From contig NZ_JNIO01000008.1 of NCBI RefSeq assembly GCF_000702545.1, positions 868,001 through 932,000 on the forward strand: a stretch of DNA of 64,000 nt, written 5' to 3'. The stretch's first letter is position 1. Each line of letters starts with the position of its first letter. The notes under the pieces are model-generated. The model ran no database searches. It saw only the letters and a program-made list of their open reading frames with translations, and was not told the origin of the DNA. Source of the stretch: Selenomonas sp. AB3002. Its GTDB lineage: Bacteria > Bacillota > Negativicutes > Selenomonadales > Selenomonadaceae. The translations under genes were made by a program, and so were the position numbers. Of this stretch, positions 31,243 through 50,750 are shown one piece after another.

Positions 31243-32409
31243 TCAATCTCGACCAAACACATCGCAAGTATAAACTTTATCCCTCTCATCTTCCAAGTCC
31301 TTATGCCAACGATTGGCAATAAGGATATCGCTCAATCTCTTAAATAGAACTAAATCATTCACAATACTGCAACCTCTAAATTTAGGTTCTCCAATCGTAG
31401 GTTCATATATAAGGCACTCAACTCCATACTCCTGCAGTTTTTCTATTACATCTAGCACAGCACTAGAACGAAAATTATCCGAGTTCTTTTTCATAGTCAA
31501 GCGATAAACTCCTACAGTCTTTGGTTTCCATTTTATGATTTCTCCGACTATAAAATCCTTACGAGTCCTGTTAGCCTGCACTATGGCAGTAATTAGATTT
31601 TGTGGTACATCTTCATAGTTAGCCAATAGCTGCTTGGAATCTTTGGGCAAACAATAGCCACCATAACCAAAGGATGGATTGTTATAGTGGTCACCTATTC
31701 TAGGATCCATACACACTCCCCGAATGATTTCCTCCGTAGACAAATTCCTGATGGCAGCGTAGGAATCAAGCTCATTGAAATACGCCACACGTAGGGCCAG
31801 ATAAGTGTTGGCAAAAAGCTTCACTGCCTCGGCCTCCGTTGGCCCCATCAGCAACACAGGCACTTCATCACTCTCTGCTGCCTCCAGGAAAAGTCCTGAG
31901 AGCCGCCTGCCCGCCTCGCCCTTGTCGCCAAGTATGATGCGTGACGGATGCAGACTGTCATGTAGAGCATGCCCCTCCCGCAGGAACTCTGGGGCGAAGT
32001 AGATATTTTCCCTGCCATACCGTTCCCGCAGTCGCAAAGTGTAGCCCACGGGGACAGTGGAGCGTATCAGGATATCCACCCCAGGCGCAAACTCCAGCAC
32101 CTCATCAATGACGCACTCAATTGATGAAGTATCAAAGAAATTTTTCTCCGCATCGTAGTCGGTAGGTGTAGCAATGAGCACCAATTCGGCTCCACACAGA
32201 GCCGTACTCGCCTCCGAAAAAGCAGAAATCTTCACCAGGCCTTCCGATAGCCACCTCTCCATGCCCTCATCCCGCACTGGAGACTTCCCCTGCCTAATCA
32301 TAGCTACCCGCTCAGCAGAGATATCCAGAACTGATACTTCGTGATGCTGTGCCAGCACTAATGCATTGGCCATACCTACATATCCAGCACCTGCTACCGT
32401 TATCTTCAA
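31243..32409 (-). CDS. ugd: UDP-glucose 6-dehydrogenase
   Basis: Ugd oxidises UDP-glucose to UDP-glucuronate using two NAD. The NAD domain opens KITVAGAGYVGMANALVLAQ, then LIATPTDYD, RSTVPVGYT, FAPEFLREG, the hinge helix ANTYLALRVAYFNELD and the catalytic cysteine in GGYCLPKDSKQL. About 388 residues is the usual length. The TTG start at 32409 is supported by AGGGAG and by the same arrangement in the truncated copy at 36639-37016. The 5' two thirds are visibly more GC-rich than the 3' third (switch near 31740), suggesting a recombinant gene. Confidence 0.93.
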   Translation of the reverse strand: MKITVAGAGYVGMANALVLAQHHEVSVLDISAERVAMIRQGKSPVRDEGMERWLSEGLVKISAFSEASTALCGAELVLIATPTDYDAEKNFFDTSSIECVIDEVLEFAPGVDILIRSTVPVGYTLRLRERYGRENIYFAPEFLREGHALHDSLHPSRIILGDKGEAGRRLSGLFLEAAESDEVPVLLMGPTEAEAVKLFANTYLALRVAYFNELDSYAAIRNLSTEEIIRGVCMDPRIGDHYNNPSFGYGGYCLPKDSKQLLANYEDVPQNLITAIVQANRTRKDFIVGEIIKWKPKTVGVYRLTMKKNSDNFRSSAVLDVIEKLQEYGVECLIYEPTIGEPKFRGCSIVNDLVLFKRLSDILIANRWHKDLEDERDKVYTCDVFGRD

Positions 32410-32536
32410 CCCCAACACTCCCTAGAACATAACATCTAATCACAGTCATTCCTTGATTATTTTTTATCTGTTGCGTTATTATGTAATATAATTCGCAGTG
32501 CCTTATCATAGTCTCATTAAAGACAATCAACAATTC

Positions 32537-35500
32537 TCATTTTGGATTATGTTTTTTATGCGCATATTTAAAGGAAAACGTTGACAAGTATCTGTTATCC
32601 TCCAATATATCTCTAACATTATAAATATAGCCATCTACATCAGGATTAATATACTTACGTACATAAAACTTGTTTAACTCTATATATTCTTCCGAGCTAA
32701 GCAATCTCAAAATTTTCTCTACAAGGTTTTTATAGGCTTTTTCCACTTTATTTTTTTCATTATTGTGACACACTAAAATATACTTAAGATTATGCTTAAA
32801 CCCATCTGAATCTATTATCTTCTGATAATATTCATCCATTGCATTATTAATGAAATAATTTTTGTTGATTATATCACAAAAAACATCAACATAATCAACA
32901 AATGGAGATTCAATCAAATAAGATATTTCCGATATATAAGAGTTAAATGACGGGCTTTCTCTATCAACCGGCGTAGCTAGAATCTCATACCCATTAAATA
33001 CAGGCAACCCTCTCATTTCCCTAAGTAACATACGTAAAGTTTGTTTGAGCAGCACTAAATCATCTATTTTCGGTGCATTTTTCAAAACATCCGCATAGGA
33101 AAAAGGCTCAGTTTGCACTAGTTCCACAAATTCTTCGTCCACTTTAGCAACAATTATTTTTTCAGCACGATGATTTAAAATATGATTTTTTAATGCTCCA
33201 TTTAAGTTAAATACACGCATACTATTACTGCTATATTTTTCTATTTTGCTAACTAGTTTATTTGGTAAATTTATTTCATCCAATTTTTCTGATACAAAAA
33301 AGACTTTTTGATTACGAAGATCACAACATTTTACATATATTTCTTCCTCTGATTCAAACGAATAATAATTTCCTATTGAAATATCTTTTAGCAAATCCTT
33401 ATACTCATGCCATAATTCATCAGATTTATACGAATATTGCTTAGCAAATTGATATACTAATAAAATTGTATCTTTAATTTGAGGACGTTCATTTCTACCA
33501 ATTTTATCATCCAATAAATAATCTATAAGTAATTTTGCAGTTTCCTCTAGAGATGTCAGTAGTATTCTCCAAATATAACCACAATATTCCTCTCTTATCG
33601 TATTACGATTAATATTAACAACTTTGTCAGCATTCTCCCCCATCAAATCAATGCACCAAGTCACATAAGGCAAAAATGGGATATTATTTTGTTGTCCAAA
33701 CATCCAATCACACACGTGAGAATGCCTATAAAAAATTACATTATAAGGCAGTTCTATCGAATCGTTAATGGTTCCATATTGATGTTTCCTATCAACTTCA
33801 TTCTGCAATAATATTTTACACATTAAGTGACAATTTAAAGCAGGAAAAAAAACGCTTGTTTTCACGCAACCATTTTTTATATCTACTTCTTTTAAACCAT
33901 TCGAAAAAAAAGGCGGAATATTTAACAAAGGTATATCTTCGCCATTTCTATGATCAGTAATACTTATATCTATAGGGACAACATCCCATTTCTTCTTTTT
34001 CATTTCCAGACCACGCATATGTTGTGACGGATGCAAATCACCATATTCAGCCCTCAATTTTCTAAGAAACCACGGACTCAATATCTTATGGCAATAATAA
34101 TAATTAGGACATCCCAATTCATCTGCATTTAGTTTTGTCAAATCCACTATTAACTTAACTTCCGTCCCTTGCGCAAAACGTTCCTTATACTCTTCTACGA
34201 TTATATAGCCAGCATCACGCGTAGCATTTTGAAATGTGAGTTTCTTGGGGGCTTCATTTATTGTTTTAGTTACAATAACAAATTGGTCAACTAGCAAGAA
34301 TATAGATTGCATCCCCATACCAAAAGCGCCTGATGGACGCATCCAATCCGGCATTTTGCGTAAAAGGTTCCTAGAATATGCCGATCTTTTATTAGAGACC
34401 TCTGCAATTCTATGAATATCTTCTACAGAAATACCAATTCCATTATCGCGTATACATATTTCCACATGTGTATTATCGATTTCTTTTACATACCCCTTTA
34501 TTTGATATGCTTTCCAATCAATATAATTATCTTTTAATTTTTTAATTATATCTTCCGGTGTTCCATCAAGTATCTTCTCATCATATAATCGAAAAATTGT
34601 AGCATCTACAGCATTTTGTATAATCTCACGTATACATACCAACTTATTTCGATAAATACCGCCACCAGCAAATAGCTGAAACATTCTTTTACTAGATATA
34701 TGATAATTAAGATTGGCTAACTCAGCCCACTTATTACTTCCCTTAAACATAATTTCACGCTGAACCAACCGAGGAGAGTTTCCAAAATTTTCCGGTGCAA
34801 TCTCACTCCAATGTAGTGCAATGTATTCACAAGTATTCTGTATCCAATCCATCCATTGCCGCATTATCCTATATACTTCATCATTTTCAACATTAGATTT
34901 TATATAGATTTCATTATAATCTATCAGAAATCTCTCAACTGATTCATGTTTTTTTAAATGCAATTTTGATAAATGAGGCATAGGCGTTGATGATTCCAAA
35001 GAGTATTCATTAAATCGATCCGTGTCTAAATCTAATAAATCCCCCAAGCAAAGCATAGCAACTATGAAACGTGGATGCATATAATCATCAAATATTCCGT
35101 TTTCCTTATGAGGGATATCCATAATATGTTTAATTGATTTTTGATGCTGCTTACAAATTGATGCTAACAGTTTCTGGTTACGAATCCCGAAGCAATGCTT
35201 TATTGCTTCATTACTTATTATATATCCGGCGCTACGCTCAGCGTGACCCGATCTATATACATGTTCTATTACTTCTATCACATCATTATATACTTCAATC
35301 GAATGTTCGTAATCATTATCATTAATTGTAAAATTACATAGCCTCCTAGCAATATGTTGTAATTCAGACTCAGAATCATTAGCTAAATCATTTAGATATC
35401 TTTGAAATTCTTCAGATATTAATTTAAAATAAATTTCCTCATATTTTAAAGCCATTCCTATGTCATGTAAATAAAAACTTGATAACATCATCATAAGATC

Positions 35501-35725
35501 AGAACATGATAGTTTTTCTATTCTCTCTACCCCCAACAGTTTACTTATATGCTCTCCTATTTTTCTTGAATGAGATATATCATGTTTACTAAAATGTGGA
35601 AAATGAACACAAACAGTCTCCAATTTCTTCGCAGTCACCATTTTAATAACATTCCACTGATTCACTTTATCTTGGACGTCAGGGTTAGTTTGACTAAGAA
35701 ATTCTAATCTATCTTCTAAGTACAT
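32537..35725 (-). CDS. HD-domain and Hsp90-like GHKL ATPase protein, candidate defence gene
   Basis: A protein of 1062 residues. The N-terminal third is an HD-type phosphohydrolase-like domain: HFPHFSKHDISHS (41-53), the HD pair in SSFYLHDIGMA (87-88) and CLGDLLDLDTDR (227-237). From about 350 comes a Bergerat ATPase as in Hsp90/HtpG: REIIQNAVDA (366-375), DNGIGIS (427-433) and GAFGMGMQS (466-474). The C-terminal 550 residues are unassigned. HD domains joined to Hsp90-like ATPases have been described among predicted bacterial conflict systems (HD-CE group), so an antiphage role is plausible but inferred. AAGGTG lies six bases before the ATG at 35725. It has no link to glycan synthesis and is very AT-rich. 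Confidence 0.7.
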   Translation of the reverse strand: MYLEDRLEFLSQTNPDVQDKVNQWNVIKMVTAKKLETVCVHFPHFSKHDISHSRKIGEHISKLLGVERIEKLSCSDLMMMLSSFYLHDIGMALKYEEIYFKLISEEFQRYLNDLANDSESELQHIARRLCNFTINDNDYEHSIEVYNDVIEVIEHVYRSGHAERSAGYIISNEAIKHCFGIRNQKLLASICKQHQKSIKHIMDIPHKENGIFDDYMHPRFIVAMLCLGDLLDLDTDRFNEYSLESSTPMPHLSKLHLKKHESVERFLIDYNEIYIKSNVENDEVYRIMRQWMDWIQNTCEYIALHWSEIAPENFGNSPRLVQREIMFKGSNKWAELANLNYHISSKRMFQLFAGGGIYRNKLVCIREIIQNAVDATIFRLYDEKILDGTPEDIIKKLKDNYIDWKAYQIKGYVKEIDNTHVEICIRDNGIGISVEDIHRIAEVSNKRSAYSRNLLRKMPDWMRPSGAFGMGMQSIFLLVDQFVIVTKTINEAPKKLTFQNATRDAGYIIVEEYKERFAQGTEVKLIVDLTKLNADELGCPNYYYCHKILSPWFLRKLRAEYGDLHPSQHMRGLEMKKKKWDVVPIDISITDHRNGEDIPLLNIPPFFSNGLKEVDIKNGCVKTSVFFPALNCHLMCKILLQNEVDRKHQYGTINDSIELPYNVIFYRHSHVCDWMFGQQNNIPFLPYVTWCIDLMGENADKVVNINRNTIREEYCGYIWRILLTSLEETAKLLIDYLLDDKIGRNERPQIKDTILLVYQFAKQYSYKSDELWHEYKDLLKDISIGNYYSFESEEEIYVKCCDLRNQKVFFVSEKLDEINLPNKLVSKIEKYSSNSMRVFNLNGALKNHILNHRAEKIIVAKVDEEFVELVQTEPFSYADVLKNAPKIDDLVLLKQTLRMLLREMRGLPVFNGYEILATPVDRESPSFNSYISEISYLIESPFVDYVDVFCDIINKNYFINNAMDEYYQKIIDSDGFKHNLKYILVCHNNEKNKVEKAYKNLVEKILRLLSSEEYIELNKFYVRKYINPDVDGYIYNVRDILEDNRYLSTFSFKYAHKKHNPK

Positions 35726-35761
35726 AATATACACCTTCACATTCAGCATTCTACATCATAA

Positions 35762-36481
35762 GCATTTAATCAACCCGTAACGTCCAGAAATTTCTTCTAC
35801 TACGGCTATAACCTCTATCTCTTCACAGATACCAACTCTGGACTGCCTGTCTTCCCTGTCCTGGAGCGTGCTTCCCGCCACGACCTTCCTGCCATGCTGC
35901 ACGGACTTGCCTGCATCAAGACATTCTTCACGGACTGGAATATTTCCGCTTTGATCCTTGATTCTGCACACAATGCAGCAGCTGTGTACGAGATGTGCAG
36001 CAAAAACAGCATAACACCCTTCATAGACTTGAACCCTCGCGGTACGAAATCTGCTGAGGACAAGAGATATACCATTGGAGATGACGGTGTGCCAATCTGC
36101 CCTCTGGGACTTCCCATGAAGCCCAATGGCACTGACAAGAAGCGGCACAGAGCCAAATATATTTGCCCGAAGACAAAATACGCTGAAAGGCTGTGCCTGT
36201 GCGACAATCGCTGCACAAAATCCACTTATGGACGTGTTGTAAATATAAACCTCAAGGATGACCCACGGCTTTTCTGCGACCCTCCACGAGGTTCGCCTCA
36301 ATGGAAGCAAGCCTACAACAAGCGCACATCTGCTGAACGGGCCAACAAACGCATAAAGATTGACGGACTGCTGGAAGAAGGGCGCCATCGCTCATCCATG
36401 ATGTGGTATATTCGATTATTCGCCATACTGTCCGTCATTCACATAGATGCTTGGCATGAGCGCAAATGTGAGAGTGCATGA
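35762..36481 (+). mobile_element. Transposase C-terminal fragment (DDE type)
   Basis: An open frame with no proper start (in-frame stop at 35759) codes for the last ~240 residues of a DDE transposase: LYLFTDTNSGLPVFPVLERA (an Asp), ALILDSAHNAAAVYEM (second Asp), a cysteine-rich insert (KYICPKTKYAERLCLCDNRC), and WKQAYNKRTSAERANKRIK with the likely glutamate. The N-terminal part is missing. It points away from the HD/Hsp90-like gene, whose upstream region it replaces. The IS family is not certain. Confidence 0.7.
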
Positions 36482-36638: not shown

Positions 36639-37016
36639 TCACATAGTATAGCCCACTGGCACAGTGGATCGAATAAGTATGTCTGCCGCAGGAGCAAACT
36701 CTAGCACTTCTTCAATAACACACTCTATAGAAGACGTATCAAAAAAATTTCTCTCCGCATCATAGTCAGTAGGCGTAGCAATGAGCACCAAATCTGCGCC
36801 CTGCATACACTTATCAACCTCCGTAAAAGCAGAAAGCTTCACACGTCCTCTTGCTAACCAATCCTCCATTCCATCATCGCATACTGGAGATACACCCTTC
36901 TCTATCTTGGCAACTCTTTCAATTGAAATATCCAGTACAGACACTTCATTTCTCTGGGCTAAAACTAAAGCATTTGCAAGCCCTACATAACCAGCACCTG
37001 CTACTGTAATCTTCAA
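36639..37016 (-). pseudogene. Truncated 5' copy of ugd
   Basis: About 125 residues of a second UDP-glucose dehydrogenase, from KITVAGAGYVGLANALVLAQ to RSTVPVGYTM, where a stop follows. It is closely similar to the first third of the intact ugd at 31243-32409 and keeps the same TTG start and GGGGAG site. The catalytic cysteine and UDP-binding domain are absent, so it cannot be an active enzyme. It faces the transposase fragment on the broken side. Confidence 0.88.
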
Positions 37017-37079
37017 TGTGAACACTCCCCATAATTACAAACATTCTTTCTCAGAGGGCTTTCCAAAACCATACATTTT

Positions 37080-38501
37080 CTACGAACGATTATATATATC
37101 AGTTAACTCGTCATATAAATCCTCATCAAACATTTTTATATATTCAAATTGCATATCAACTTTCTCCTTAGGATATAGTCCCATAGCTGCGCTCGATTGT
37201 ATTGTTATAATCTTTTCTAGCGGAACATCTAAAAAATAGAAAAATTCAAACGGAAAATCACTACGAATAACTTCACACTCTGGAAATGCGTTTTTATAAT
37301 CAAAATCATCTCTTGGATGAGGTTTTATCAACACTCGAGAACAATCATATTTATTTAATATTTTTTTATACATTGTCAACTGTTCATCATTAGTAAAAGA
37401 ATATACAAATGTTTTCATCGGTTGTGTAAGCAAAATATAATCAAAACCATCTTTTACATATTTTCTGATATCTTCAATAGGAACATCAAAAAGTTCCAAG
37501 ATTTTTTCCTTGACGCCTTCATTTTTTGCATACCACAAAGATTTTAAGTTTTTTACTTCTACTTTGTCCTTTATCACTTCAGGAATACTCAATCTTCCAG
37601 TAAGGATTATTTTTTTTGCATACTGATTATATCCATAAACTGTAGCATTCTGCCAATCACCTAGCACAGGCAACATAAATCTAAATCTATTTACATACTT
37701 AGGCAAATAATTTGTAGTGCCATCTTCCAATACAGTAAATTTATCCCGACTAAAATAAACATCTTCTGGCATCCCATCTGGTGCGTAAACTTCTAAGCGA
37801 CGCACCGATGCATACAAAGCCAACAATCTAATACAATCAAACAGACGAGCTTTTTCCTCTTTATCATACGATGCTGTTTTACAACAATTAATTCCTATTG
37901 CTTGCATCCGATGATACAGTTTATTGGGAAAGACATCACTAAGGAAGAAATAGGTATTCTCCCAGTCATCTTTCAAAAGCAAGTATTGAAGAAACATATA
38001 AGCAGAACTAGCACACATAATCTCCTTAATTGTTACATGACTATGAAGCATAGTTCGCAATGCTTCATCATAAATACTACCAAATCTATACTTGCTAAAA
38101 TCAATGCCCATTTCAAGTGCTGTAAACAGCAGATTAACGGGTAATATTTCATTCTTATCTGAAATTGACATTAAATAATTATATATATTTGAAAAATCCC
38201 ATACAGGCGTCACAATGACTATAAGATGTTCAGAATTAATTAACACCTCTCTTAAATCCAAGGAAAATGAAGAATATATTGGAATATTATGATACATTTC
38301 TGCTTTTGAAGCATTATCTATAAAACAAAGTATATCATAGATTTCAAAAATGTCATCACACAGATATTTCCCTAAGTCTCCGCAACCATATATAACAATC
38401 TGTTGCTTCTTATTGAACAATGTACCTATATCCAGTTTATGAACTTTCGTCCGCAAGTAATGATGGATATTTTTTCTTTGAATATCTTGTCTTATTCCCA
38501 T
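37080..38501 (-). CDS. Rossmann-like domain fused to a GT52-like (sialyltransferase-type) transferase
   Basis: Residues 30-135 form the recurrent domain (QQIVIYGCGDLGKYLCDDI, LIVIVTPVWDFSNI). The C-terminal two thirds resemble family 52 transferases, which include bacterial sialyltransferases: TVYGYNQYAKKIILTGRLS, YILLTQPMKTFVYSF, VLIKPHPRDDFDYKNAF (HP motif) and ITIQSSAAMGLYP. A CMP-nonulosonic acid donor would fit the neighbouring legionaminic-acid genes. Similarity is judged by motif only. Confidence 0.72.
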   Translation of the reverse strand: MGIRQDIQRKNIHHYLRTKVHKLDIGTLFNKKQQIVIYGCGDLGKYLCDDIFEIYDILCFIDNASKAEMYHNIPIYSSFSLDLREVLINSEHLIVIVTPVWDFSNIYNYLMSISDKNEILPVNLLFTALEMGIDFSKYRFGSIYDEALRTMLHSHVTIKEIMCASSAYMFLQYLLLKDDWENTYFFLSDVFPNKLYHRMQAIGINCCKTASYDKEEKARLFDCIRLLALYASVRRLEVYAPDGMPEDVYFSRDKFTVLEDGTTNYLPKYVNRFRFMLPVLGDWQNATVYGYNQYAKKIILTGRLSIPEVIKDKVEVKNLKSLWYAKNEGVKEKILELFDVPIEDIRKYVKDGFDYILLTQPMKTFVYSFTNDEQLTMYKKILNKYDCSRVLIKPHPRDDFDYKNAFPECEVIRSDFPFEFFYFLDVPLEKIITIQSSAAMGLYPKEKVDMQFEYIKMFDEDLYDELTDIYNRS

Positions 38502-38505
38502 ATTG

Positions 38506-39750
38506 TTATTTGACTCCTTCCAATACCATACTGTATATATTTTCTCCTATATTCTCACTATGCTCTCTATCTATTTTATCCAAAGCAAATTCTAAATTTA
38601 TTATACACTTAATAAAAACAGGCAAACTTCGTTGCGACATCTCTGGTAAAATTTCATTTTGTCTCATGCCTGACTTGATATATAATTCGACTTCATTATC
38701 CTCCATTGTATTTTTCTTATGCTGCTTAACTCGTCCATTTACGCAATCCACTTCGTATAGTATTCCTTGCCTGCTATGAAGTACAAAGCAACGGTTATTC
38801 AATATATCATGAGTAATAACAGGAAACCTAAAATATTTTGATGGCATCTCTATGCCCGTTTCATCATTCTCTGATAAAAAATCCATGATATCCACAGAAG
38901 AAATTCCATTCCGGGGATTAATTGTCAAAATTTTATTTCCATAACACGGAAACAAAACTTGATTATCACCGTAGGTGACCCCCCCAAAAAAACGAGGATA
39001 TAAACTGTTATCTGTAGGTAATTCTATTTTTTTAAATTCATTAATTGCTGGGTTCCAAAATACTATATCATCACCATCAGCACTAAGCACGATAACATTA
39101 TCATTCATAGCCACTAAAGATAATGATTTAAATTCGAATGGCATCTCTACTACATCGCTACGCATTATATCTAGGTCAATAATAACAATTTTATTTGTTT
39201 CGTACGGAGTCAAATATAAATAATGATCTTTTACAACAAACGAATCACGATTGAAGAACAATTTTCTCTTAGGAATTATGTCTTCTACATCATCACTCCA
39301 CCGTGTATGAATTTTATACGATTTTGAATTACCATTATACTCAACAATATACCCATTAAATGAACAAATAAAGAATGCTTTGTCATGGTAGTTAACCACT
39401 AAATCATATGCTTGCTTTGAATCAACAAATGGAGAATCTATATATGGCACATCCAATGAAATCTCATCAAAAGTTCCATTGTTCGTATCAAATTCCAAAA
39501 AATCACTATGTTTTTTTATAAATCTAGGAGCAATTATTACTTTATCACCGACTTTTGCCAACACCCCATACTGTGGACGACCTTTTTTTAAACCTTCTTC
39601 ATCACAAGGCAATTGAGCCAAGCATACAACTTTATCATCAGACAAACTCATCTTATAAAGTCCATAAAAATAATTTTTTTGTGGAACAAACCATAAGTCA
39701 TCATTATCTACCGCAAAACATGTAGCATCTATTTGTAAAGCTTTCTCCAT
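38506..39750 (-). CDS. Cytoplasmic beta-propeller-like protein of unknown function
   Basis: A protein of about 414 residues without a signal peptide or membrane span. It has repeated blades of the pattern 'strand-turn-strand' (DLWFVPQKNYFYGLYKMSL, KAFFICSFNGYIVEYN, HYLYLTPYETNKIVIIDLD, NVIVLSADGDDIVFWNP, QVLFPCYGNKILTINP, RCFVLHSRQGILYEVD), which suggests a six- or seven-bladed propeller. The last 60 residues are helical. The ATG at 39750 has GGAGG nine bases before it. It lies four bases upstream of the GT52-like gene, so it may assist that enzyme; function is unknown. Confidence 0.7.
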   Translation of the reverse strand: MEKALQIDATCFAVDNDDLWFVPQKNYFYGLYKMSLSDDKVVCLAQLPCDEEGLKKGRPQYGVLAKVGDKVIIAPRFIKKHSDFLEFDTNNGTFDEISLDVPYIDSPFVDSKQAYDLVVNYHDKAFFICSFNGYIVEYNGNSKSYKIHTRWSDDVEDIIPKRKLFFNRDSFVVKDHYLYLTPYETNKIVIIDLDIMRSDVVEMPFEFKSLSLVAMNDNVIVLSADGDDIVFWNPAINEFKKIELPTDNSLYPRFFGGVTYGDNQVLFPCYGNKILTINPRNGISSVDIMDFLSENDETGIEMPSKYFRFPVITHDILNNRCFVLHSRQGILYEVDCVNGRVKQHKKNTMEDNEVELYIKSGMRQNEILPEMSQRSLPVFIKCIINLEFALDKIDREHSENIGENIYSMVLEGVK

Positions 39751-39784
39751 TTGCAACTTCCTCCGATTGATACCACATGAATAC

Positions 39785-41809
39785 TCATATCATACTCGTT
39801 TCTACTTTTTTAAACCTATTAATTAAATACTTAAATGTCAAATCCGTTACAAACCCTTCCAGCACTTCGAATTTCTGTTTATGCACCAACTCTCTAACTT
39901 TTGATGCACTAATTACACCAACATCATTGTTCAATCTAGGTATCTCTATAAACTGTATACCATACTGTGGTAGAATTTTACGCATATCATCATTATACTG
40001 ACGTGTTACATTATCCAAAGGCTCTTCTCCAGCAAAACGAACTGTAATATCAAGACAAGGTGCAATTTCTTTTGCAAAAACAATTATATCTTTCGATGCA
40101 TCAATTATTTTGTTCTGCAATTTTTCTTTATTAAAGTATTCGGAAAAAGTCTTAGTAGAAATAACAAATTCGCCACTTGGCATTATTAGTACACGATCTA
40201 AATCAGCAAGATTATCCTCAACCATCTTGAATCTGTCTACAAATGAAAACTCTGACTTATCCTCCTCAACAACAAATACAATTAAGTAATCACATTGTTT
40301 CAATGCTGTTTCAACCAAATAACGATGGCCTTTAGTGAACGGATTACAATTCATGACTACTGATCCTATTTTAGGCCGAAGATACTCATCATATATTATT
40401 TTAAGTTTTTTCTTATAGAAATATATTAAATCATCGGATTCAACACCTAATAGGCCACAATGTTTATTCTTATCATTAACGATAGGTACTTCTTCACCAA
40501 TATTTTTTCCAAAAAAATTATTTCTATCCAAAAAATCGAATATTCCATCTGAAACCATGCGATTTCCATTCTTTGAGAAGTGACCATCTGTATATATTTC
40601 TCCATAATCATGTGGACGAATAGATTTCAGATACAAGTCGCAATAAGGAATCCCCCACACACCGTAGTTTGGCAATCCCCAGCATGGGTGTGCAACAAAA
40701 AAAACGATATCTCCTTGTTTGCAAGGCAGTGATTTCAAATTAGCCACGTCCCTAACATAATCAGGTCCTGGAAATCCATAATTCCACACAGCAAATTGTT
40801 TATCTGGCACTAGTTCATTTAATTTCCTTTGAAGAAAGGACTCAAACGTGTTAAAATCCGACACATATTGACCAAAAACCGTAGAAGGGCCTACAAAAAA
40901 TATAGATCTTTGTATTTCCTTTGGTTGATTTGTGGTAACCCTTATACCATTTCTAGTATTCACAGAAGCACTTTCACACTCTTCAAATCTTCTTGACCCA
41001 TCCAAATTCAAATACGAATTAGGCACTATAAACGAATCCTTAAACTCATCAAATGAGTCGAAATCACCACAAAAATGAAATGCTTTTTCCTTCCACACCT
41101 CTTTTAATAACTGAGTATCCGCCCCCAGCGCATCCAGCCACTTTGGATTTTCCCTCTCTTGTAAACGTATGAATTTCTCGTGAAGACTCAAATCAATATT
41201 ATGCTTAGATATAAATCGACGAGGCATACGCAATACACACAGCGTCACCCCCCCAATTTCTGAATATTGCCTTAGTGCATTATCAACCGGATTCAATTCA
41301 CTATGGCAGATACAGTTATCGAAAGTATCGAAAGTTTTTGTATCAATCAAGTAATCTCCTTCTAAATCAAAAACCAGAAAATTAAAGCCTCTACCTCCAT
41401 GCAAATAATTTGCACCATCAATTTGCAAATAAGCGCCCATACCGAATCCAGTATTACATCCAAATCCTGCACTATAAACTTCAAATGTATGTCTGCCGAT
41501 ATTTCCTCTTAAAACAATTGGTTTATCCAGTTCTTCAGAACAAATTTCCTGCAATACCGTTCCCTTATCCAAAACAACCACATATGGTCTGCGAAATTTG
41601 TCAGCCATATTCACTGAAGTACCAAGGCATCTCATGAAATGGTGGGATAGATCAGGCGTGAACGATACTCCAGCTCCAGTATCCCCCACTGCAATAAAAA
41701 CAACAAATGTCTCTTTTGCTACTTTTAACAGATTCAAATATCTTTCAAAATCTTTTTCTTTTTTCAGTTTTCTAATGAATAAATCATATGAGTTCACAGC
41801 CCCATCCAT
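39785..41809 (-). CDS. ILEI-like, SGNH-like and CitC-like nucleotidyltransferase fusion
   Basis: A protein of about 674 residues with three parts. The first 200 residues resemble ILEI/FAM3 domains, with the two halves in unusual order: TFVVFIAVGDTGAGVSF through RRPYVVVLDKGT, then FEVYSAGFGCNTGFGMGAYL and RGFNFLVFDLEGDYL with FDTFDN. The middle looks like an SGNH hydrolase (FVGPSTVFGQYVSDFNTFE, closing DGHFSKNGNRM). The last 200 residues match the nucleotidyltransferase of citrate lyase ligase: VVMNCNPFTKGHRYLVETAL and ISASKVRELV. The start at 41809 follows GAGGAG; the earlier ATG at 41836 has no binding site. The substrate is unknown; it may activate a glycan substituent. Confidence 0.75.
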   Translation of the reverse strand: MDGAVNSYDLFIRKLKKEKDFERYLNLLKVAKETFVVFIAVGDTGAGVSFTPDLSHHFMRCLGTSVNMADKFRRPYVVVLDKGTVLQEICSEELDKPIVLRGNIGRHTFEVYSAGFGCNTGFGMGAYLQIDGANYLHGGRGFNFLVFDLEGDYLIDTKTFDTFDNCICHSELNPVDNALRQYSEIGGVTLCVLRMPRRFISKHNIDLSLHEKFIRLQERENPKWLDALGADTQLLKEVWKEKAFHFCGDFDSFDEFKDSFIVPNSYLNLDGSRRFEECESASVNTRNGIRVTTNQPKEIQRSIFFVGPSTVFGQYVSDFNTFESFLQRKLNELVPDKQFAVWNYGFPGPDYVRDVANLKSLPCKQGDIVFFVAHPCWGLPNYGVWGIPYCDLYLKSIRPHDYGEIYTDGHFSKNGNRMVSDGIFDFLDRNNFFGKNIGEEVPIVNDKNKHCGLLGVESDDLIYFYKKKLKIIYDEYLRPKIGSVVMNCNPFTKGHRYLVETALKQCDYLIVFVVEEDKSEFSFVDRFKMVEDNLADLDRVLIMPSGEFVISTKTFSEYFNKEKLQNKIIDASKDIIVFAKEIAPCLDITVRFAGEEPLDNVTRQYNDDMRKILPQYGIQFIEIPRLNNDVGVISASKVRELVHKQKFEVLEGFVTDLTFKYLINRFKKVETSMI

Positions 41810-41861
41810 GCCGTACTCACTCCTCAGATAATGCATTTGATTACGCGTAAAAATTTCTTAA

Positions 41862-42635
41862 TTAGTCTGAATTTAATTCTGCGGTCTTATTTATAACTTC
41901 GATTAAACCAGCATCCTGCTTCTCATAAATCAAATATTTAGCTATAACCTGCATATACTCGAAATCCATTTCATGATCCAAATCCAATACAGCAGTATCC
42001 TTTCTCTTTATAATCCCACACTTACCTGCCAGCAACATAGCATCATCTCTAAGAAACTCAGGCTTATAAGCATAGATAGAAGCATCCATATCATAAACTG
42101 GGGGACATTGCTGTCGAGCTGTGCATTCACTGGGGTACACCAATGACACTGTACCATCCTCATTTTCCTTGACCATATTAAAATAAGGATTACGTCTAGC
42201 ATCGACCACAGAGAAAACAACATCATATTCAAGCGTCTTTGCCTTGTCAACTAAGGCTTCAATATCTTCTACTGTCCGAATCGGAGATGTGATATCAAAA
42301 TCCACTACTAAGTCATATTCTACTCTTGTAATTTTTTCAATTTCGTTCAGAGTATCCCATATGACCAGTTTCTTGGCCACTCTGTCTCCTGCCAAATCCT
42401 CCTTACGGGGCACAATCAGCGCATTTATTTGCGTATTGCCCTCAATCATATCTTTCATTTCCGAACTATCGGTATTGAGTGCTATGTCTATATGATGCTC
42501 AGGATGTTTATCACGATAAAGGACAATCGCTGCAAAGGTATAGAATAGCAAGGGATGCCCCAAGAATTCTCTAAAGTTCTTCCCCTTTATGCCCTTAGAG
42601 CCTGCCCTGCCGCAGACGGTAAACAAAAGATTCAC
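41862..42635 (-). CDS. legF: CMP-nonulosonate cytidylyltransferase (LegF/NeuA type)
   Basis: Couples CTP to a nonulosonic acid, giving the CMP donor. Motifs are FTVCGRAGSKGIKGKNFREF (nucleotide loop), IALNTDSSEMKDMI, LVVDFDITSPIRTVEDIEAL, and a late NPYFNMVKENEDGTV block. The upstream genes for legionaminic-acid synthesis indicate LegF rather than NeuA. The GTG start overlaps the preceding stop. Confidence 0.87.
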   Translation of the reverse strand: MNLLFTVCGRAGSKGIKGKNFREFLGHPLLFYTFAAIVLYRDKHPEHHIDIALNTDSSEMKDMIEGNTQINALIVPRKEDLAGDRVAKKLVIWDTLNEIEKITRVEYDLVVDFDITSPIRTVEDIEALVDKAKTLEYDVVFSVVDARRNPYFNMVKENEDGTVSLVYPSECTARQQCPPVYDMDASIYAYKPEFLRDDAMLLAGKCGIIKRKDTAVLDLDHEMDFEYMQVIAKYLIYEKQDAGLIEVINKTAELNSD

Positions 42636-44652: not shown

Positions 44653-45726
44653 TCAATTCGCCTCCTCATAAGTGGAAAAGACATCTTCATAGTCCCTCTG
44701 TGCTTGTTCGAAATCATCTATCCTGCCTATATCCATCCAATATTCACGAATAGGATACACAGTGGTCTTTTCCTTGCCCTCAATCAGCTGATTGAATAAA
44801 TCTGGCATATCAAGATACTTTTCCTCTCGAATATAGTCCAGCACCTCAGGCGAAAGAACATACATACCAGCATTTACAAGATACTGCTGCGACGGTTTTT
44901 CACGAATTTGCACTATTTCAGTTCCATTGTAGTCAATAACACCATACGGTACCTGATAGCTGTACTCACGTACCCCCATTGTAGCCAAAGCCTGCTTTTC
45001 CTTGTGAAAGTCTACAAACTCACCAAAATCAACTTTCGTAAGCAAATCTCCATTCATCACAATGGCAGGTTCCAACAGCTTTTCAGGCAGAAAATATAAA
45101 GCACCAGCCGTCCCCATGCGTTTTCTTTCGTGAATATAATTAATTTCCACACCATATCTGCTGCCATCGCCGAAATGTTTCTCAATCATTTCCGATTTAT
45201 AATTTACACATAGGTAAAAACGATGGAAACCGCTCTCAATAAAGTTCTCTATGATTGTTTCCAAAATGGGCTTATTCCCAACTTTTAGCAGCGGTTTGGG
45301 AACTTTATTTGTCAGTGGTCGAAGCCTGGTGCCCAGGCCACCTGCCATAAGTATGACAACATTGTCCCGCACCTTTTTATAAAGCACATCTTCTAGTGTG
45401 TAAAGGTTAATCAGCACATTGTTCTCATCTACCACAGGAATATGGTGCAGCGTAGATTTGCGCATGATGTTGGCTACATAGCTCTTTTCTTGGTTTATAG
45501 TTGCTACTAGGGGTTTTGTATTCATGACATCAACCACAGGAGCAGAAAGCTCTAAACCACGCAATAACCCACGCCTTATATCGCCATCAGTTACTACTCC
45601 CAGCAGATGATTACCTTCCGAAACTACTAGAGCAAACTGCAGGGCCGCCCTATCTATAACCCGTAATGTATCTATGATTGACATATCTCTGGATATGCAG
45701 CAATTTTTCCATGTATTCATAGTCAT
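44653..45726 (-). CDS. ptmE: CBS-domain sugar-1-phosphate guanylyltransferase (PtmE type)
   Basis: Residues 1-115 hold a CBS pair (GVVTDGDIRRGLLRG, HHIPVVDENNVLINLYTLED). The rest is a nucleotidyltransferase: VVILMAGGLGTRLRPLTNKVPKPLLKVG-type loop, LETIIENFIESGF, MGTAGALYFL and the metal site VMNGDLLTKVDF. PtmE makes GDP-glucosamine, the first step of the Campylobacter legionaminic-acid route, and it has the same CBS-plus-transferase layout. It lies nine bases behind legI. Confidence 0.88.
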   Translation of the reverse strand: MTMNTWKNCCISRDMSIIDTLRVIDRAALQFALVVSEGNHLLGVVTDGDIRRGLLRGLELSAPVVDVMNTKPLVATINQEKSYVANIMRKSTLHHIPVVDENNVLINLYTLEDVLYKKVRDNVVILMAGGLGTRLRPLTNKVPKPLLKVGNKPILETIIENFIESGFHRFYLCVNYKSEMIEKHFGDGSRYGVEINYIHERKRMGTAGALYFLPEKLLEPAIVMNGDLLTKVDFGEFVDFHKEKQALATMGVREYSYQVPYGVIDYNGTEIVQIREKPSQQYLVNAGMYVLSPEVLDYIREEKYLDMPDLFNQLIEGKEKTTVYPIREYWMDIGRIDDFEQAQRDYEDVFSTYEEAN

Positions 45727-45735
45727 TACTTCCCT

Positions 45736-46818
45736 CTACCACTCAATCTTCTCATCTATTCCATAAGCACGACCAGCTTTCTTACCCAGTATGTGCCATA
45801 CATTCATAGGGCTGATACCTGCTCCTGCTCTCTTAGCTGTCAATTTTTCCAGAGTAATATTTTCTCCTTCTGAAATTTCCGAAGCTGCCACCATGCTTTT
45901 TCGCACTATATTGATGTTTGCAACCTCATCAGCAGCTGGAATCTTCACGCCACACCCTATGGCCTGCTCCACCGTGCGAATGGCTTGCACCATGGCCTGC
46001 AGCTCCTCTGGTTCCAGGGAAGCCTTATGGTCAGGGCCAGGCATATCTTTGTCCAGAGTGAAATGCTTCTCTATAATGACAGCCCCCAGCGCTGTTGCCG
46101 CCACAGGAATAGTTATTCCTTTAGTATGATCGGAATACCCTACCGGCAGGCCGAAAGCTCTTTTCATAGTTTCCATAGCCTTCAAATTAGCCTGGGATGC
46201 AGGTGCGGGGTACTGGGTAGTGCAATGAAGAAGCTGCACTTTTTCCCTAAGGATGTTCTGGCCTTCCTCTGATACATACACATCCTGAGCAGCCTGGTAG
46301 TTGGCCGGAAAATCTGACTTTATATATCCGTAGGCCAGCATCGCCAAGGCCTTTTCGATCTCTCCCAAAGTCGCCATGCCCGTGGACAGCACTACGGGCT
46401 TTTGGGAATGTGCAATCTCTATCAAGAAGGGCGCGTTAGTTACCTCGCCCGAAGGAATCTTGATGAATGGCATATTCAGCGCTGTAGTCAGAAAATGCAG
46501 GCTATCACTATCAAAAGGTGTGGATATAAAATCCACGCCGCACTCTCTGCATAGTTTTTCCAGCTCTATGTAATCCTCATCCTTCAATGTCAGTTTCTGC
46601 AACATCTCCAGCTGACTTTCCTGCATTCCCGTAGTCACCTTCTGATAGGCCGCTTTTTCTGCTGTCTTGGTTACTAAATTCTCCGGGTGAAAAGTCTGGA
46701 ACTTCACTGCGTCTGCTCCAGCCTCTGCCCCAGCCCTAACCAGCTTTCTGGCCAGTTCCATGTCACCATTATGGTTCACGCCAGCTTCGGCTATGATATA
46801 TACATGCTTCTTACTCAA
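45736..46818 (-). CDS. legI: Legionaminate/sialate-type synthase
   Basis: Condenses a six-carbon amino sugar with phosphoenolpyruvate to form a nine-carbon acid. Motifs are YIIAEAGVNHNGDMELARKL, AVKFQTFHPENLVT, FISTPFDSDSLHFL, KIPSGEVTNAPFL, VVLSTGMATLGEI, VGYSDHT and IEKHFTLDKDMPGPDHKASL, with a C-terminal SAF antifreeze-like domain (RKSMVAASEISEGENITLEK). The start TTG overlaps the legG stop. The family also includes NeuB and PseI; the neighbours indicate legionaminate. Confidence 0.9.
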   Translation of the reverse strand: MSKKHVYIIAEAGVNHNGDMELARKLVRAGAEAGADAVKFQTFHPENLVTKTAEKAAYQKVTTGMQESQLEMLQKLTLKDEDYIELEKLCRECGVDFISTPFDSDSLHFLTTALNMPFIKIPSGEVTNAPFLIEIAHSQKPVVLSTGMATLGEIEKALAMLAYGYIKSDFPANYQAAQDVYVSEEGQNILREKVQLLHCTTQYPAPASQANLKAMETMKRAFGLPVGYSDHTKGITIPVAATALGAVIIEKHFTLDKDMPGPDHKASLEPEELQAMVQAIRTVEQAIGCGVKIPAADEVANINIVRKSMVAASEISEGENITLEKLTAKRAGAGISPMNVWHILGKKAGRAYGIDEKIEW

Positions 46819-47990
46819 GTCCTCGCGCCTCCCGGCAAATCGTAGAATCTCTTTTTCAAATCTATGTGGCCTTGCAATGCTTCCATAATCTTTTGGGCAA
46901 TTCTTTCACCCGCATGGCCAGTTCCGTACGGACTGATAACCTCTCGACAAATCGCCTGATGCGCGGGGCTCATAGCTTTTTTTATACCATGCACAATCTC
47001 TGCTGCTGACGAGCCACAGTTTACAATACTTGCATACTGAAGCCTCCCTCTTTGGCGGTCACCAATATTTACTGTAGCAACATGCAAAGCCGGAGCTTCG
47101 ATAATACCACTGGAAGAATTCCCTAACACTAGCTTGGCATGTTTCATAAGTGATAGGTAACGCCGTACGCCTAAGGAAGTATAGACATGCAGATTAGACA
47201 AGCCTGCCTTATCCAGTAAGGCATTGATTTTCGCTCCACCTTGGTCAGCATTTGACTTAGTGACGATGAATTGCATATGTGGAAATGCTTTTATGGCCTC
47301 CAAGAAATCATCTATATTCTGCTCGACCTGCTCCTCTTCCATTGTCACAGGGTGATAGGTACAAAGCGCGTATTCGCAGTCATCCAGCCCAATGCTTTTC
47401 AGCGCTTCAGCCTTTTCCATATCTGCCACTGACAATATATTGTCTATGCTGGTGGAGCCATAGTTGAAAACCCTGTCTGGGCTTTCTCCCAGTTGCACAA
47501 CCCTTCTGCGGCTTTCCTCATTGGTCGTGAAATGAAGATAGCTCATCTTGGATATGGAATGCCTGATCCACTCATCCATGGCTCCTTCGGTGGTGTCGCC
47601 TCCGCAAATATGAAATATTGGCATTTGCGTATTCCCTGCGGCCATAGCCACTGCCAGTATTTCATAGCGATCTCCCAATAACACCACGCCGCTGTATCTC
47701 TCTGTGGCAAACAATCTTGTGAATTTAACTAATGCATCTGCCTGATTGAAAGATATATCCAAAGCAGTATCAGATTTGACCGAAATTTCAATTCTCTTAT
47801 CTATCCGTTGCCCTGCCGCTTCTATCTCTTGTACAGTCATACCATATTGCTCACTCAGATGGGTGCCGGTAACTATCAGTTCCACCCTAAATGTGTCGCT
47901 TTCTCCCTTACGCAGTGCCCTGACTACCGGAGAGAGCAAGCCATATTCCGCTCTGGTGGCTGTCACCACGCATATCTTTCGCATATCCAC
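46815..47990 (-). CDS. legG: Hydrolysing UDP/GDP-GlcNAc 2-epimerase (LegG/NeuC type)
   Basis: Epimerises and hydrolyses a nucleotide sugar to a free ManNAc-like sugar for the synthase. Motifs are ICVVTATRAEYGLLSPVVRA, VTGTHLSEQYGMTV, VLLGDRYEILAVAMAA, FHICGGDTTEGAMDEWIRHS, and the late NSSSGIIEAPALHVATVNIG. In a PtmE/LegB setting the substrate would be a 2,4-diacetamido GDP-sugar. It couples downstream to legI by overlap. Confidence 0.9.
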   Translation of the reverse strand: MDMRKICVVTATRAEYGLLSPVVRALRKGESDTFRVELIVTGTHLSEQYGMTVQEIEAAGQRIDKRIEISVKSDTALDISFNQADALVKFTRLFATERYSGVVLLGDRYEILAVAMAAGNTQMPIFHICGGDTTEGAMDEWIRHSISKMSYLHFTTNEESRRRVVQLGESPDRVFNYGSTSIDNILSVADMEKAEALKSIGLDDCEYALCTYHPVTMEEEQVEQNIDDFLEAIKAFPHMQFIVTKSNADQGGAKINALLDKAGLSNLHVYTSLGVRRYLSLMKHAKLVLGNSSSGIIEAPALHVATVNIGDRQRGRLQYASIVNCGSSAAEIVHGIKKAMSPAHQAICREVISPYGTGHAGERIAQKIMEALQGHIDLKKRFYDLPGGART

Positions 47991-47999
47991 CCAGTCCCT

Positions 48000-48899
48000 T
48001 CAAACCTGCTTCCTTTTGCCCAGCCGGTCGCCTACTCGTACGCGCCCAGCAAAATCATAGTCTACTACTTCCACCATGGTATCCTGCGTTTTCACTAAGA
48101 ACCCCTGCTCCGTTTTCCCAAGCACCTGTCCAGGAATATTCTTGTAAACATGCGCACCTTTTATTTCACGAACCTTGTTGATGCGCATTTCCGCCCCATC
48201 CAAAAAGGTTCTCGCTGCAGGACCAGGAGGACAGATAGCCCTGACAAAATTGAACACATCCCGGCTTCTCTGGTTCCAGTCCAAGATTTCGTCTCCTATC
48301 TGCCTCATACCACAGTAAAAACCCACTGGGTCGATATCCTTTTGCTGAGTAACCTCAGCCGTTCCCTCCTGGAGGCTCTTAATGGCCTCATAGAGAATGT
48401 CCGCGCACCCAGCATAAGCTCTTTCCAACAAGGTTGCATAAGTGTCATCATCTGTGATGGGATATGTATTTTGCAGGATAATATCCCCTGTATCTATGCC
48501 CTCGTCCACATAGTGGACGGTAATTCCGAATTCCTTCTCATCATTGATGAGAGCCCAGTTCAGAATATTCCTCCCCCGATAGAAGGGTAACTTACCTGCA
48601 TGGCAGTTGATGGTTTTCATAGGCGGGATATTAATAAAGTCCTTCTTGAAAATCTGATTGAAGGACATGGAGACAAAAATATCCGCTCCATAGCCAGCAT
48701 ATTCTTTCCGTGCTTCTGGTGTATTGATATTCTCGTGAAGAACAACAGGTATGCCCTGTTCCTCAGCCATCTTTATCAACACAGGATCTTTTTTGTCGTA
48801 ACGCACAGTCACGAAAACAATTTCCAAGCTTTTGTCAGCAACTATCTTCTCGAACGACCTATGGCCCCAAGGGCCATCTGCAAAGTAACCAATCTTCAC
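48000..48899 (-). CDS. Sugar N-formyltransferase
   Basis: A 10-formyl-tetrahydrofolate-dependent transferase of about 299 residues, related to methionyl-tRNA formyltransferase but placed among sugar genes. The catalytic residues appear in TINCHAGKLPFYRGRNILNW (Asn and His) and VHYVDEGIDTGDIIL (Asp). The C-terminal part has an OB-like end (MRINKVREIKG, VRVGDRLG). It probably formylates an amino group of the nonulosonic acid or its precursor. The GTG at 48899 follows GAGGTG by six bases; a TTG 18 bases earlier overlaps that site. Confidence 0.83.
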   Translation of the reverse strand: MKIGYFADGPWGHRSFEKIVADKSLEIVFVTVRYDKKDPVLIKMAEEQGIPVVLHENINTPEARKEYAGYGADIFVSMSFNQIFKKDFINIPPMKTINCHAGKLPFYRGRNILNWALINDEKEFGITVHYVDEGIDTGDIILQNTYPITDDDTYATLLERAYAGCADILYEAIKSLQEGTAEVTQQKDIDPVGFYCGMRQIGDEILDWNQRSRDVFNFVRAICPPGPAARTFLDGAEMRINKVREIKGAHVYKNIPGQVLGKTEQGFLVKTQDTMVEVVDYDFAGRVRVGDRLGKRKQV

Positions 48900-48943
48900 G
48901 TAAACCACCTCACACAATTTGTGATGCGGTATTTTATGCCTGG

Positions 48944-49572
48944 TTACATAGCTTTCGCCGGAACGCCCACTACCTTAGCACCTGGTGGCACATCCTTCAG
49001 GACAACAGCTCCAGCTCCCACAAGCGCATTCCTGCCAATGGATATCCCTTGAATTACCGTTGCCCCAGTGCCAATATGGCTTCCATCACCTACCTGCACA
49101 CCACCAGACAAGATAGCTCCCGATGCAATATGCACATGACTGCCAATGACACAGTCATGGTCTACCACAGCCCCGGTGTTGATGATAGAATCCTCGGCAA
49201 TCCTAGTGCCTGTGTTCACCACAGCCCCCGCCATGACTTGTACACCTTCCCCAAGGATGCAATCCGATGCAATTATCGCAGCTGGATGTATCACCTGACG
49301 AAAGCCGTAGCCAAGCTTTTTGAACTTGTAATAGATGCTTGCACGAAGGGCTGTATCTCCTACAGATCCCAGCCCATTGACCAACTCCACCGCATCATTG
49401 GAGTAGGCAGAAATCGCACTGTCATCTCCTATGATGGGCAAATCACCGTTCTGTCTACTGGGGGGGGGCACTTGTCAAGCATACCCAGCATCTCTACCCC
49501 CAGCAGTCTCAAGCTATCGTATAGCACCTTGGCATGGCCTCCAGCACCGATGATTATTACAGGTTTATCCAT
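48944..49572 (-). pseudogene. legH: LegH/PglD-like sugar acetyltransferase, out of frame at a poly-C tract
   Basis: The full gene runs from the ATG at 49572 (MDKPVIIIGAGGHAKVLYDS) through a PglD-type N-terminal fold and a left-handed beta-helix acetyltransferase (IHPAAIIASDCILGEGV, VVDHDCVIGSHVHIASGAIL, catalytic His in VDHDC, closing GVPAKAM). At 49461-49469 a run of nine C on the coding strand shifts the frame, giving a 47-residue product ending at 49429. Seven or ten C would restore a single frame. It is either phase-variable and now off, or a base was miscalled. The enzyme would acetylate the 4-amino group. Confidence 0.8.
49461..49469. repeat. Nine-base G/C homopolymer tract inside the acetyltransferase gene
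   Basis: Nine consecutive G on the plus strand (C on the coding strand) at a point where the two halves of the acetyltransferase lie in different frames. Homopolymer C/G tracts of this length are the classic slippage sites of contingency genes. Confidence 0.85.
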
Positions 49573-49577
49573 TGAAC

Positions 49578-50750
49578 TTATTCTCCCAATACTACACTAG
49601 ACGGGATATTGACCAACCTTCGTCCAACATCTTCTGCAGTGCTGCATTCCATACGCGGACAGTCTTTGTACATCTCCAATGTGTACATAAGATTCCAGAT
49701 AGGGCGACTCATAATGTTGCTGTCATTCAAAAGTGCCAGCAGCCTGTCTCGCATGTGCGCCAGCTCCGGTTTTAAAAGCAAGGCGTTAAACCAATAGTTG
49801 CTCTTGGCAAAATCCGGTTCTATGAAAAAGTCAACGGATTCATTTCCTTCAAAGACCTTTCTGTATTTTTCTGCCAAAGCGCGCTTCTTTGCGAGGAACT
49901 CTGGCAATTCTTCCAGCTGGGCACATCCCAATGCCGCATTGATATTTGGCATACGATAGTTATATCCTACCATATCATGACGGAATTCCCACTTATGCGG
50001 AATCTTAGCTTGAGTAGTCAAGTGCTTGGCCAGTTTGCCCATGTCATCATCATTAGTAAGCACAGCACCACCACCACCGGTGGTGATTGTTTTGTTGCCA
50101 TTAAAGCTCATGGCACTCACAAGGCCGAAATTTCCCGTATGTTTGCCCTTGTAGAAAGAACCAATAGACTCAGCACAATCCTCTACTACCACCAGATGGT
50201 ACTCTTCGGCAAGGGCATTTACCTTATCCATATCCACAGGATGACCAAAGGTATGCATTGGTACCACAGCAGATATCCGCCTGCCTGTCTTTCTATTGTA
50301 GCATGCTCCGTTCTTTATTTCAGCAATCTCTCGCAAATAGTCTCTTAGCTTATCTGGATCCAACCCTAATGTTTCATAGCAGCTATCAACAAAATGAGGC
50401 ACCGCTTGGCAATAAACCACGGCATTGGCTGTAGCTATAAATGTCAGCGCTGGAACTAAGACCTCATCTTCAGGCTTTACCCCCGCCAAGATTAAGCATA
50501 TATGCAAGGCAGAAGTGCCATTCGCCACCGCCACTGCTCTTTTTACACCAGTATAGGCAGCCAGGTCTTCTTCAAAGCGGTCAACAAATTTCCCTACTGA
50601 GGAAACCCATCCCGTATCAATACATTCTTTGACATATTTGTTTTCATTGCCCCTAAACAACGGCTCGTGCAAAGGCAGAAAATGCTCTGTAGGAAGGACG
50701 GCCTGCAACGTATCCAGCACATTGCTTAGTTTATTCACTTCATCCATCAT
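49578..50750 (-). CDS. legC: PLP-dependent sugar aminotransferase (LegC type)
   Basis: A DegT/DnrJ/EryC1 aminotransferase that adds the 4-amino group to the 4-keto sugar made by LegB. Motifs are LFRGNENKYVKECIDTGWVS, AVANGTSALHICLILAGV, VVEDCAESIGSFYKGKHTG and the PLP lysine in MSFNGNKTITTGGGGAVL; the substrate side has YNYRMPNINAALGCAQLEEL. The start overlaps the legB stop. Its product would pass to the acetyltransferase encoded next. Confidence 0.9.
   Translation of the reverse strand: MMDEVNKLSNVLDTLQAVLPTEHFLPLHEPLFRGNENKYVKECIDTGWVSSVGKFVDRFEEDLAAYTGVKRAVAVANGTSALHICLILAGVKPEDEVLVPALTFIATANAVVYCQAVPHFVDSCYETLGLDPDKLRDYLREIAEIKNGACYNRKTGRRISAVVPMHTFGHPVDMDKVNALAEEYHLVVVEDCAESIGSFYKGKHTGNFGLVSAMSFNGNKTITTGGGGAVLTNDDDMGKLAKHLTTQAKIPHKWEFRHDMVGYNYRMPNINAALGCAQLEELPEFLAKKRALAEKYRKVFEGNESVDFFIEPDFAKSNYWFNALLLKPELAHMRDRLLALLNDSNIMSRPIWNLMYTLEMYKDCPRMECSTAEDVGRRLVNIPSSVVLGE

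Follow-up and report, generated by a model that had tools for sequence, protein, structure and literature searches.

Sugar O- or N-acylation is usually thought to require acetyl-CoA or a membrane acyl donor. Stand-alone CitC, the citrate lyase ligase, acylates a pantetheine-type thiol. FkbH-type acyl-loading enzymes contain a HAD domain and use a glyceryl substrate where the protein analyzed here has a CitC domain; both join an acyl activator to an SGNH-like region, and the two are set apart by description. The tRNA acetate ligase TmcAL (PF05636) converts acetate and ATP to acetyl-AMP, which serves as the acetyl donor (PMC7408541). Within the ILEI/FAM3 family (PF15711), the stem of POMGNT1 binds beta-linked sugars via Arg129 and Asp179 (PMC9437275).

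An open reading frame of Selenomonas sp. AB3002 (family Selenomonadaceae; genome of 3.67 Mb, here G000, contig C8) combines a permuted ILEI, an SGNH and a CitC module. It was found in a stretch of 64,000 nucleotides, referred to as the window, and occupies 39785..41836 of the minus strand (683 uninterrupted codons); all parts of the protein are likewise given on that strand. Reading by eye, a start at 41809 (Met10), giving 674 amino acids, is probably better than 41836, having an AGGAG about 10 nt upstream while 41836 lacks a similar site. This favors the boundary at 41809 chosen in an earlier note on this DNA. That note had also proposed a triple fusion of ILEI-like, SGNH-like and CitC-like domains, which Pfam and profile searches confirmed: the three-module protein is real, with the CitC module certain and the ILEI and SGNH modules well supported. 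An AlphaFold2 model of the whole ORF from a 35-row alignment had a mean pLDDT of 87.2 and a pTM of 0.68; in it residues ~186-284 (40985..41281), which match no family, form a mostly helical connector. No signal peptide or membrane segment was seen, and the protein is therefore probably cytoplasmic. No paper linking CitC with SGNH or with legionaminic acid, or dealing with a permuted ILEI domain, turned up in literature searches, nor was any earlier description of the ILEI-SGNH-CitC architecture found.

The permuted ILEI domain

Sequence comparisons give good support for residues ~22-173 being a circularly permuted ILEI/FAM3 domain. The C-terminal half is placed first (residues ~22-99, 41540..41773), as identified with PF15711, a restored-order profile and a PDB profile, and the N-terminal half follows (residues ~107-173, 41318..41518), carrying Arg149 in an RGxN motif. 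In native order the window protein scores 19.8-20.9 bits against PF15711, below the cut-off of 27, and residues 15-92 align with profile positions 19-89, a partial match from which it follows that the C-terminal half comes first. With the halves exchanged back, a single match of 28.9 bits covers positions 1-89 of the 90 in the profile and exceeds the cut-off, bearing out the swapped order that had been suggested from the letters alone. The exchanged sequences were used as search queries only. Scores rose in 5 of 5 proteins tested, the others being those of loci L066 (19.7 to 27.8), L092 (30.6 to 38.0), L074 (24.7 to 31.7) and L073 (27.1 to 33.7). The canonical strand order is absent, with the halves swapped in the family.

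In a search of the PDB with a native-order profile of the domain, the seven top-ranking sequences were those of FAM3C (3.2e-6), FAM3A, FAM3B, TMEM2 and POMGNT1; FAM3C stretches 79-105 and 106-167 aligned to query positions 123-149 and then 9-71. With the order restored, FAM3C matched in one stretch (4.3e-8), and the top eight hits all belonged to the ILEI family, the ninth being at 0.095. When the model of the domain, in which the order is permuted, was used for fold searches, POMGNT1 entries were the top five in VIA-align at a modest Z of 5.0 over 85 residues, and Foldseek gave no match below E 0.1.

By alignment only, Arg129 and Asp179 of POMGNT1 correspond to Arg149 and Asp52 in the window protein. 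Among 21 permuted ILEI domains the Arg is kept in 17 and the Asp in 16. The domain thus has in common with ILEI/FAM3 proteins, including the POMGNT1 stem, both halves, the RGxN motif and the Asp of the sugar-binding pair, whereas it is circularly permuted, falls below the cut-off in native order and is part of a probably cytoplasmic enzyme. We infer that it would bind the sugar of an acceptor. Permuted ILEI domains are rare: they were found in 12 of 189 Selenomonadaceae genomes and in 4 of 398 genomes sampled across the phylum. Their other fusion partners are polysaccharide pyruvyl transferase, DUF6311 and GT2 proteins, and at locus L043 (159-2519) a single ORF contains a permuted ILEI domain together with a pyruvate-formate-lyase-like domain.

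The SGNH and CitC domains

Residues ~285-445 (40502..40984) are well supported as a divergent SGNH domain by a profile match to PDB SGNH esterases and by invariant positions. The segment of the window protein has no Pfam SGNH-family match on its own, and PF00657 matched weakly in 4 of 29 relatives (best 9.2e-5). A profile of 29 sequences identified 9otv (lysophospholipase L1-like, 2.3e-5), 7c23 and TesA in the PDB and, weakly, the O-acetyltransferase PatB; in this alignment the GDS serine of the esterases falls on the Cys/Ser of the family, and the DxxH-type His is aligned too. The family profile therefore supports the probable SGNH hydrolase assigned to this third in the earlier note. Fold searches with the full model were filled by hits to the CitC domain and were thus little informative on SGNH.

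The presumed nucleophile is Ser318 (40883..40885), a position held in 70 relatives, near-identical ones among them, by Cys in 54, Ser in 14, Ala in one and Pro in one (Cys or Ser in 68/70). In the same 70 rows Arg299, Asn352 and Asp376 are nearly invariant. As both Ser and Cys are found inside the ILEI-containing group, the two residues have interchanged. His419 of the DGH motif (40580..40582), the presumed catalytic base, is His in 69/69; the Asp of that motif, whose conservation the earlier note had put up for checking, is present in 45/69, and the spacing varies. In the window protein the Asn of SGNH block III cannot be recognized, and hydrolase-type chemistry may be altered as a result. 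In common with SGNH acyltransferases and esterases (PatB, TesA-like) are the nucleophile elbow and the C-terminal His; in contrast to them, the family has Cys in most relatives, a degenerate block III and its own fused acyl activator. Judging from the alignment, the mostly-Cys nucleophile suits an acyl-enzyme. It also bears on a reading in which the SGNH domain strips acetate and CitC re-activates it, editing the O-acetyl groups of glycans. The SGNH profile matches are mainly esterases and the window protein itself has Ser, but Cys in so many relatives would be unusual for an esterase, and the two activities would form a futile cycle within one chain. This reading appears highly doubtful.

The CitC-type adenylyltransferase domain comprises residues 488-677 (39806..40375) and matches PF08218, the CitC C-terminal domain, with an E-value of 8.3e-60 (202 bits against a cut-off of 20.9). 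Its HIGH-type nucleotide-binding motif, PFTKGH, lies at residues 499-504 (40325..40342), and the GH of the FTKGH singled out earlier proved invariant. The full-length equivalog TIGR00124 gives 196.3 bits, short of its cut-off of 262.1, and is matched at model positions 139-331 only. The protein thus shares with citrate lyase ligase the C-terminal domain, yet it lacks the N-terminal region of CitC and has SGNH and ILEI modules instead. Of the positions at least 85% conserved in both 9 stand-alone and 51 SGNH-linked CitC domains, all but one have the identical residue, the sole group-specific change being Tyr to Phe at 557; by this comparison the CitC active site is intact in the SGNH-linked domains. 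In a tree of CitC domains the stand-alone group corresponds to one label change with weak support (52/89), too little to prove that the SGNH-linked group arose only once.

For residues 487-677 of the AlphaFold2 model the closest fold is PPAT (Z 19.5 over 154 residues), and near folds also include TmcAL (1.1e-5) and pantothenate synthetase. The domain has in common with TmcAL the acetate-activating HIGH-type fold and the acetyl group coming from acetyl-AMP, whereas the acceptor of TmcAL is tRNA and PF05636 remains sub-threshold in the window protein (12.2 of 27 bits). The nucleotidyltransferase previously read in this third therefore stands as a CitC-type domain, refined to carboxylate adenylation of the CitC/TmcAL kind and not sugar-nucleotide synthesis. 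If the domain were nonetheless a true nucleotidyltransferase, it would act like TagD or CoaD and couple a nucleotide with a substituent that carries a phosphate, leaving the product to be trimmed or transferred by the SGNH domain. The superfamily is common to the cytidylyltransferases, PPAT is the closest fold, and some loci of SGNH-CitC relatives (L073, L083) hold a nucleotidyltransferase, an APH-type kinase and a HAD phosphatase. However, those loci thereby already have a nucleotidyltransferase of their own, and the sequence family is CitC, with the shared conserved positions kept bar one, which makes this alternative improbable.

True CitF is present in 21 of 189 Selenomonadaceae genomes and SGNH-linked CitC in about 53 (counted by hand), with no genome containing both, while 16 of the 18 genomes with stand-alone CitC only (also counted by hand) have CitF; these counts are non-independent owing to shared ancestry. 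The window genome has no true CitF, only one partial match of 28.8 bits at model positions 312-403, against the more than 600 bits that are typical. On these genomic comparisons the SGNH-linked CitC domain has left citrate lyase. Two PF08218 domains and one weak partial match were found in the window genome. Besides the triple ORF, the second domain belongs to a 900-aa paralogue (L032, 8379-11081) composed of a CBS-type N-terminus, a Cys-type SGNH domain and CitC, with a further region at its C-terminal end.

Linkage of the modules and gene neighborhoods

An alignment-based scan of genome contigs found relatives of the triple protein, including some in Selenomonadaceae metagenome genomes; a scan of genome contigs with the single protein gave no relative, nor did a scan of viral contigs. 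Among the matches listed for phage and plasmid records only the CitC domain was matched, except in Vibrio sp. THAF190c (CP045339), where the match spans query residues 295-677, that is SGNH and CitC. About nine triple fusions occur in Selenomonadaceae, with others in MAGs binned, perhaps wrongly, as Paenibacillaceae and Gracilibacteraceae. ILEI-SGNH and CitC are neighboring genes in Treponema (L074) and in a Clostridia MAG (L073), SGNH and CitC are split into adjacent genes at four loci (L072, L076, L081 and L086), and ILEI adjoins SGNH-CitC at L035. Because the modules are also adjacent separate genes in other phyla, we consider that they work together. At L090 (8435-12076) a 1213-aa ORF holds SGNH-CitC between sugar-nucleotide-epimerase/SDR-like regions at both ends.

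Within the window, a CMP-nonulosonate synthase gene of the NeuA/PseF type (41862..42635, minus strand; PF02348 2.7e-8; best NCBIfam PseF 8.8e-13, below cut-off) lies upstream, 25 nt from the triple ORF or 52 nt when counted from the start at 41809. Two Gfo/Idh oxidoreductase genes are also upstream. Further on, 44653..50750 of the minus strand encodes a PtmE-like CBS-nucleotidyltransferase, NeuB, NeuC, a formyltransferase-like protein, NeuD and LegC, a nonulosonic acid pathway with legionaminic acid as its probable product; we take the upstream genes to be a GDP-route legionaminic acid operon. The formyltransferase-like gene (48000-48917, minus strand; PF00551, PF02911) suggests an N-formylated nonulosonic acid. 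Directly downstream of the triple gene is that of a 416-aa protein without a family match, by eye probably a beta-propeller (38506..39756, minus strand), followed by a GT52/polysialyltransferase-like glycosyltransferase (37080..38501, minus strand; PF07922 5.4e-30, PF07388 4e-7). Beyond it are a 128-aa piece like the N-terminus of a UDP-sugar dehydrogenase (36639-37025, minus strand; a complete one is at 31243-32418), a weakly matched DDE transposase remnant beside it (35894-36481, plus strand; PF13751) and, between glycan genes, a 1070-aa protein with HD-CE (PF24391, 1e-39) and HSP90-like ATPase domains (32537-35749, minus strand) that had no PADLOC match. A role in defense was dropped, there being no PADLOC match.

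The link to the adjoining CMP-sugar synthase drawn in the earlier note finds no support as a general feature. The triple genes of relatives often stand by themselves, surrounded by genes that, named by eye, look like housekeeping genes (L033, L034, L036, L052 and L054, the last between UbiD and UbiA). Any partner and acceptor can therefore be named only tentatively, legionaminic acid being the local guess. SGNH-CitC relatives are found in glycan loci of Lachnospiraceae, Ruminiclostridium and Eggerthellales, and the SGNH-CitC family is tied to glycans in part. In one Selenomonadaceae genus (L014, L018, L028, L038, L057 and L084) SGNH-CitC is recurrently preceded by an SPFH-like gene and followed by zinc-ribbon and TPM-like genes, all named by eye.

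A radical SAM/SPASM protein is encoded in the window at 53007-53984 (minus strand), and in genome G122 a homologue with 38% identity (L053, 8771-9724) immediately precedes the triple gene, downstream of which is a row of short peptides with double-glycine-like leaders. A RiPP role was dropped, as no other triple locus examined has both.

A proposed acyl transfer to sugars

The best explanation, to which we give an even chance, is that the triple protein is a soluble, one-chain, CoA-independent acyltransferase acting on a sugar. The CitC domain would use ATP and a carboxylate, probably acetate, to form an acyl-AMP, probably acetyl-AMP. Ser318 of the SGNH domain (Cys in most relatives) would capture the acyl group with His419 as base, and would hand it on to an acceptor, at a hydroxyl or an amine, while the permuted ILEI domain holds the sugar of that acceptor. 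In this genome the acceptor would most likely be legionaminic acid, CMP-activated or already in a glycan. The domain homologies, the conservation of the CitC active site and of the Ser/Cys-His pair, the repeated association of the modules and the lack of citrate lyase are observed; acetate as substrate, the acyl-enzyme and a sugar acceptor, legionaminate in particular, are what we infer. The earlier suggestion that a substituent is activated and attached is likewise supported. Against the acyltransferase reading count the unrecognizable block III Asn and the Ser of the window protein where the family usually has Cys, and against the link to legionaminic acid that triple-fusion homologues are mostly orphans.

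Given the pantetheine-type thiol on which stand-alone CitC acts, the real acceptor might be a carrier protein. The acetyl group of acetyl-AMP made by CitC would then be relayed through the SGNH Ser/Cys to the pantetheine thiol of an ACP, much as CitC serves citrate lyase, with ILEI serving localization. The unchanged active site of CitC is in keeping with this, and so is L053, where genes for an acyl carrier protein and, by eye, for an FkbH-like protein precede the triple gene by about 6 kb. However, L053 had the one carrier protein that a motif scan found in 18 neighborhoods, a set outside which the window locus lies, and the window genome is without citrate lyase; we regard carrier loading as unlikely. 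Returning to acyl transfer to a sugar, we tentatively raise the possibility, which we hold at somewhat longer odds than the reaction itself, of a new class of CoA-independent glycan acyltransferases in which free acetate and ATP supply a covalent Ser/Cys acyl-enzyme on the SGNH domain and a circularly permuted FAM3-type lectin picks the acceptor, SGNH-CitC being spread in Bacillota, Spirochaetota, Actinomycetota and Thermodesulfobacteriota.

PF15711 exceeded its cut-off in none of the 189 family genomes, against the 12 found by the permuted profile. The permuted domain is thus mostly invisible to the Pfam model, and bacterial ILEI-like sugar-binding modules are therefore currently overlooked by Pfam-based searches. 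The gene, from a gut bacterium, combines a rearranged form of a sugar-binding fold found in animal proteins with presumed modules for activating acetate and for carrying an acyl group, and its product is therefore probably an unusual enzyme for the CoA-free decoration of surface sugars. If true, an acyl-enzyme fed by acetate would be a further route of sugar acylation, one suited to the acetate-rich rumen and to the guts of termites.
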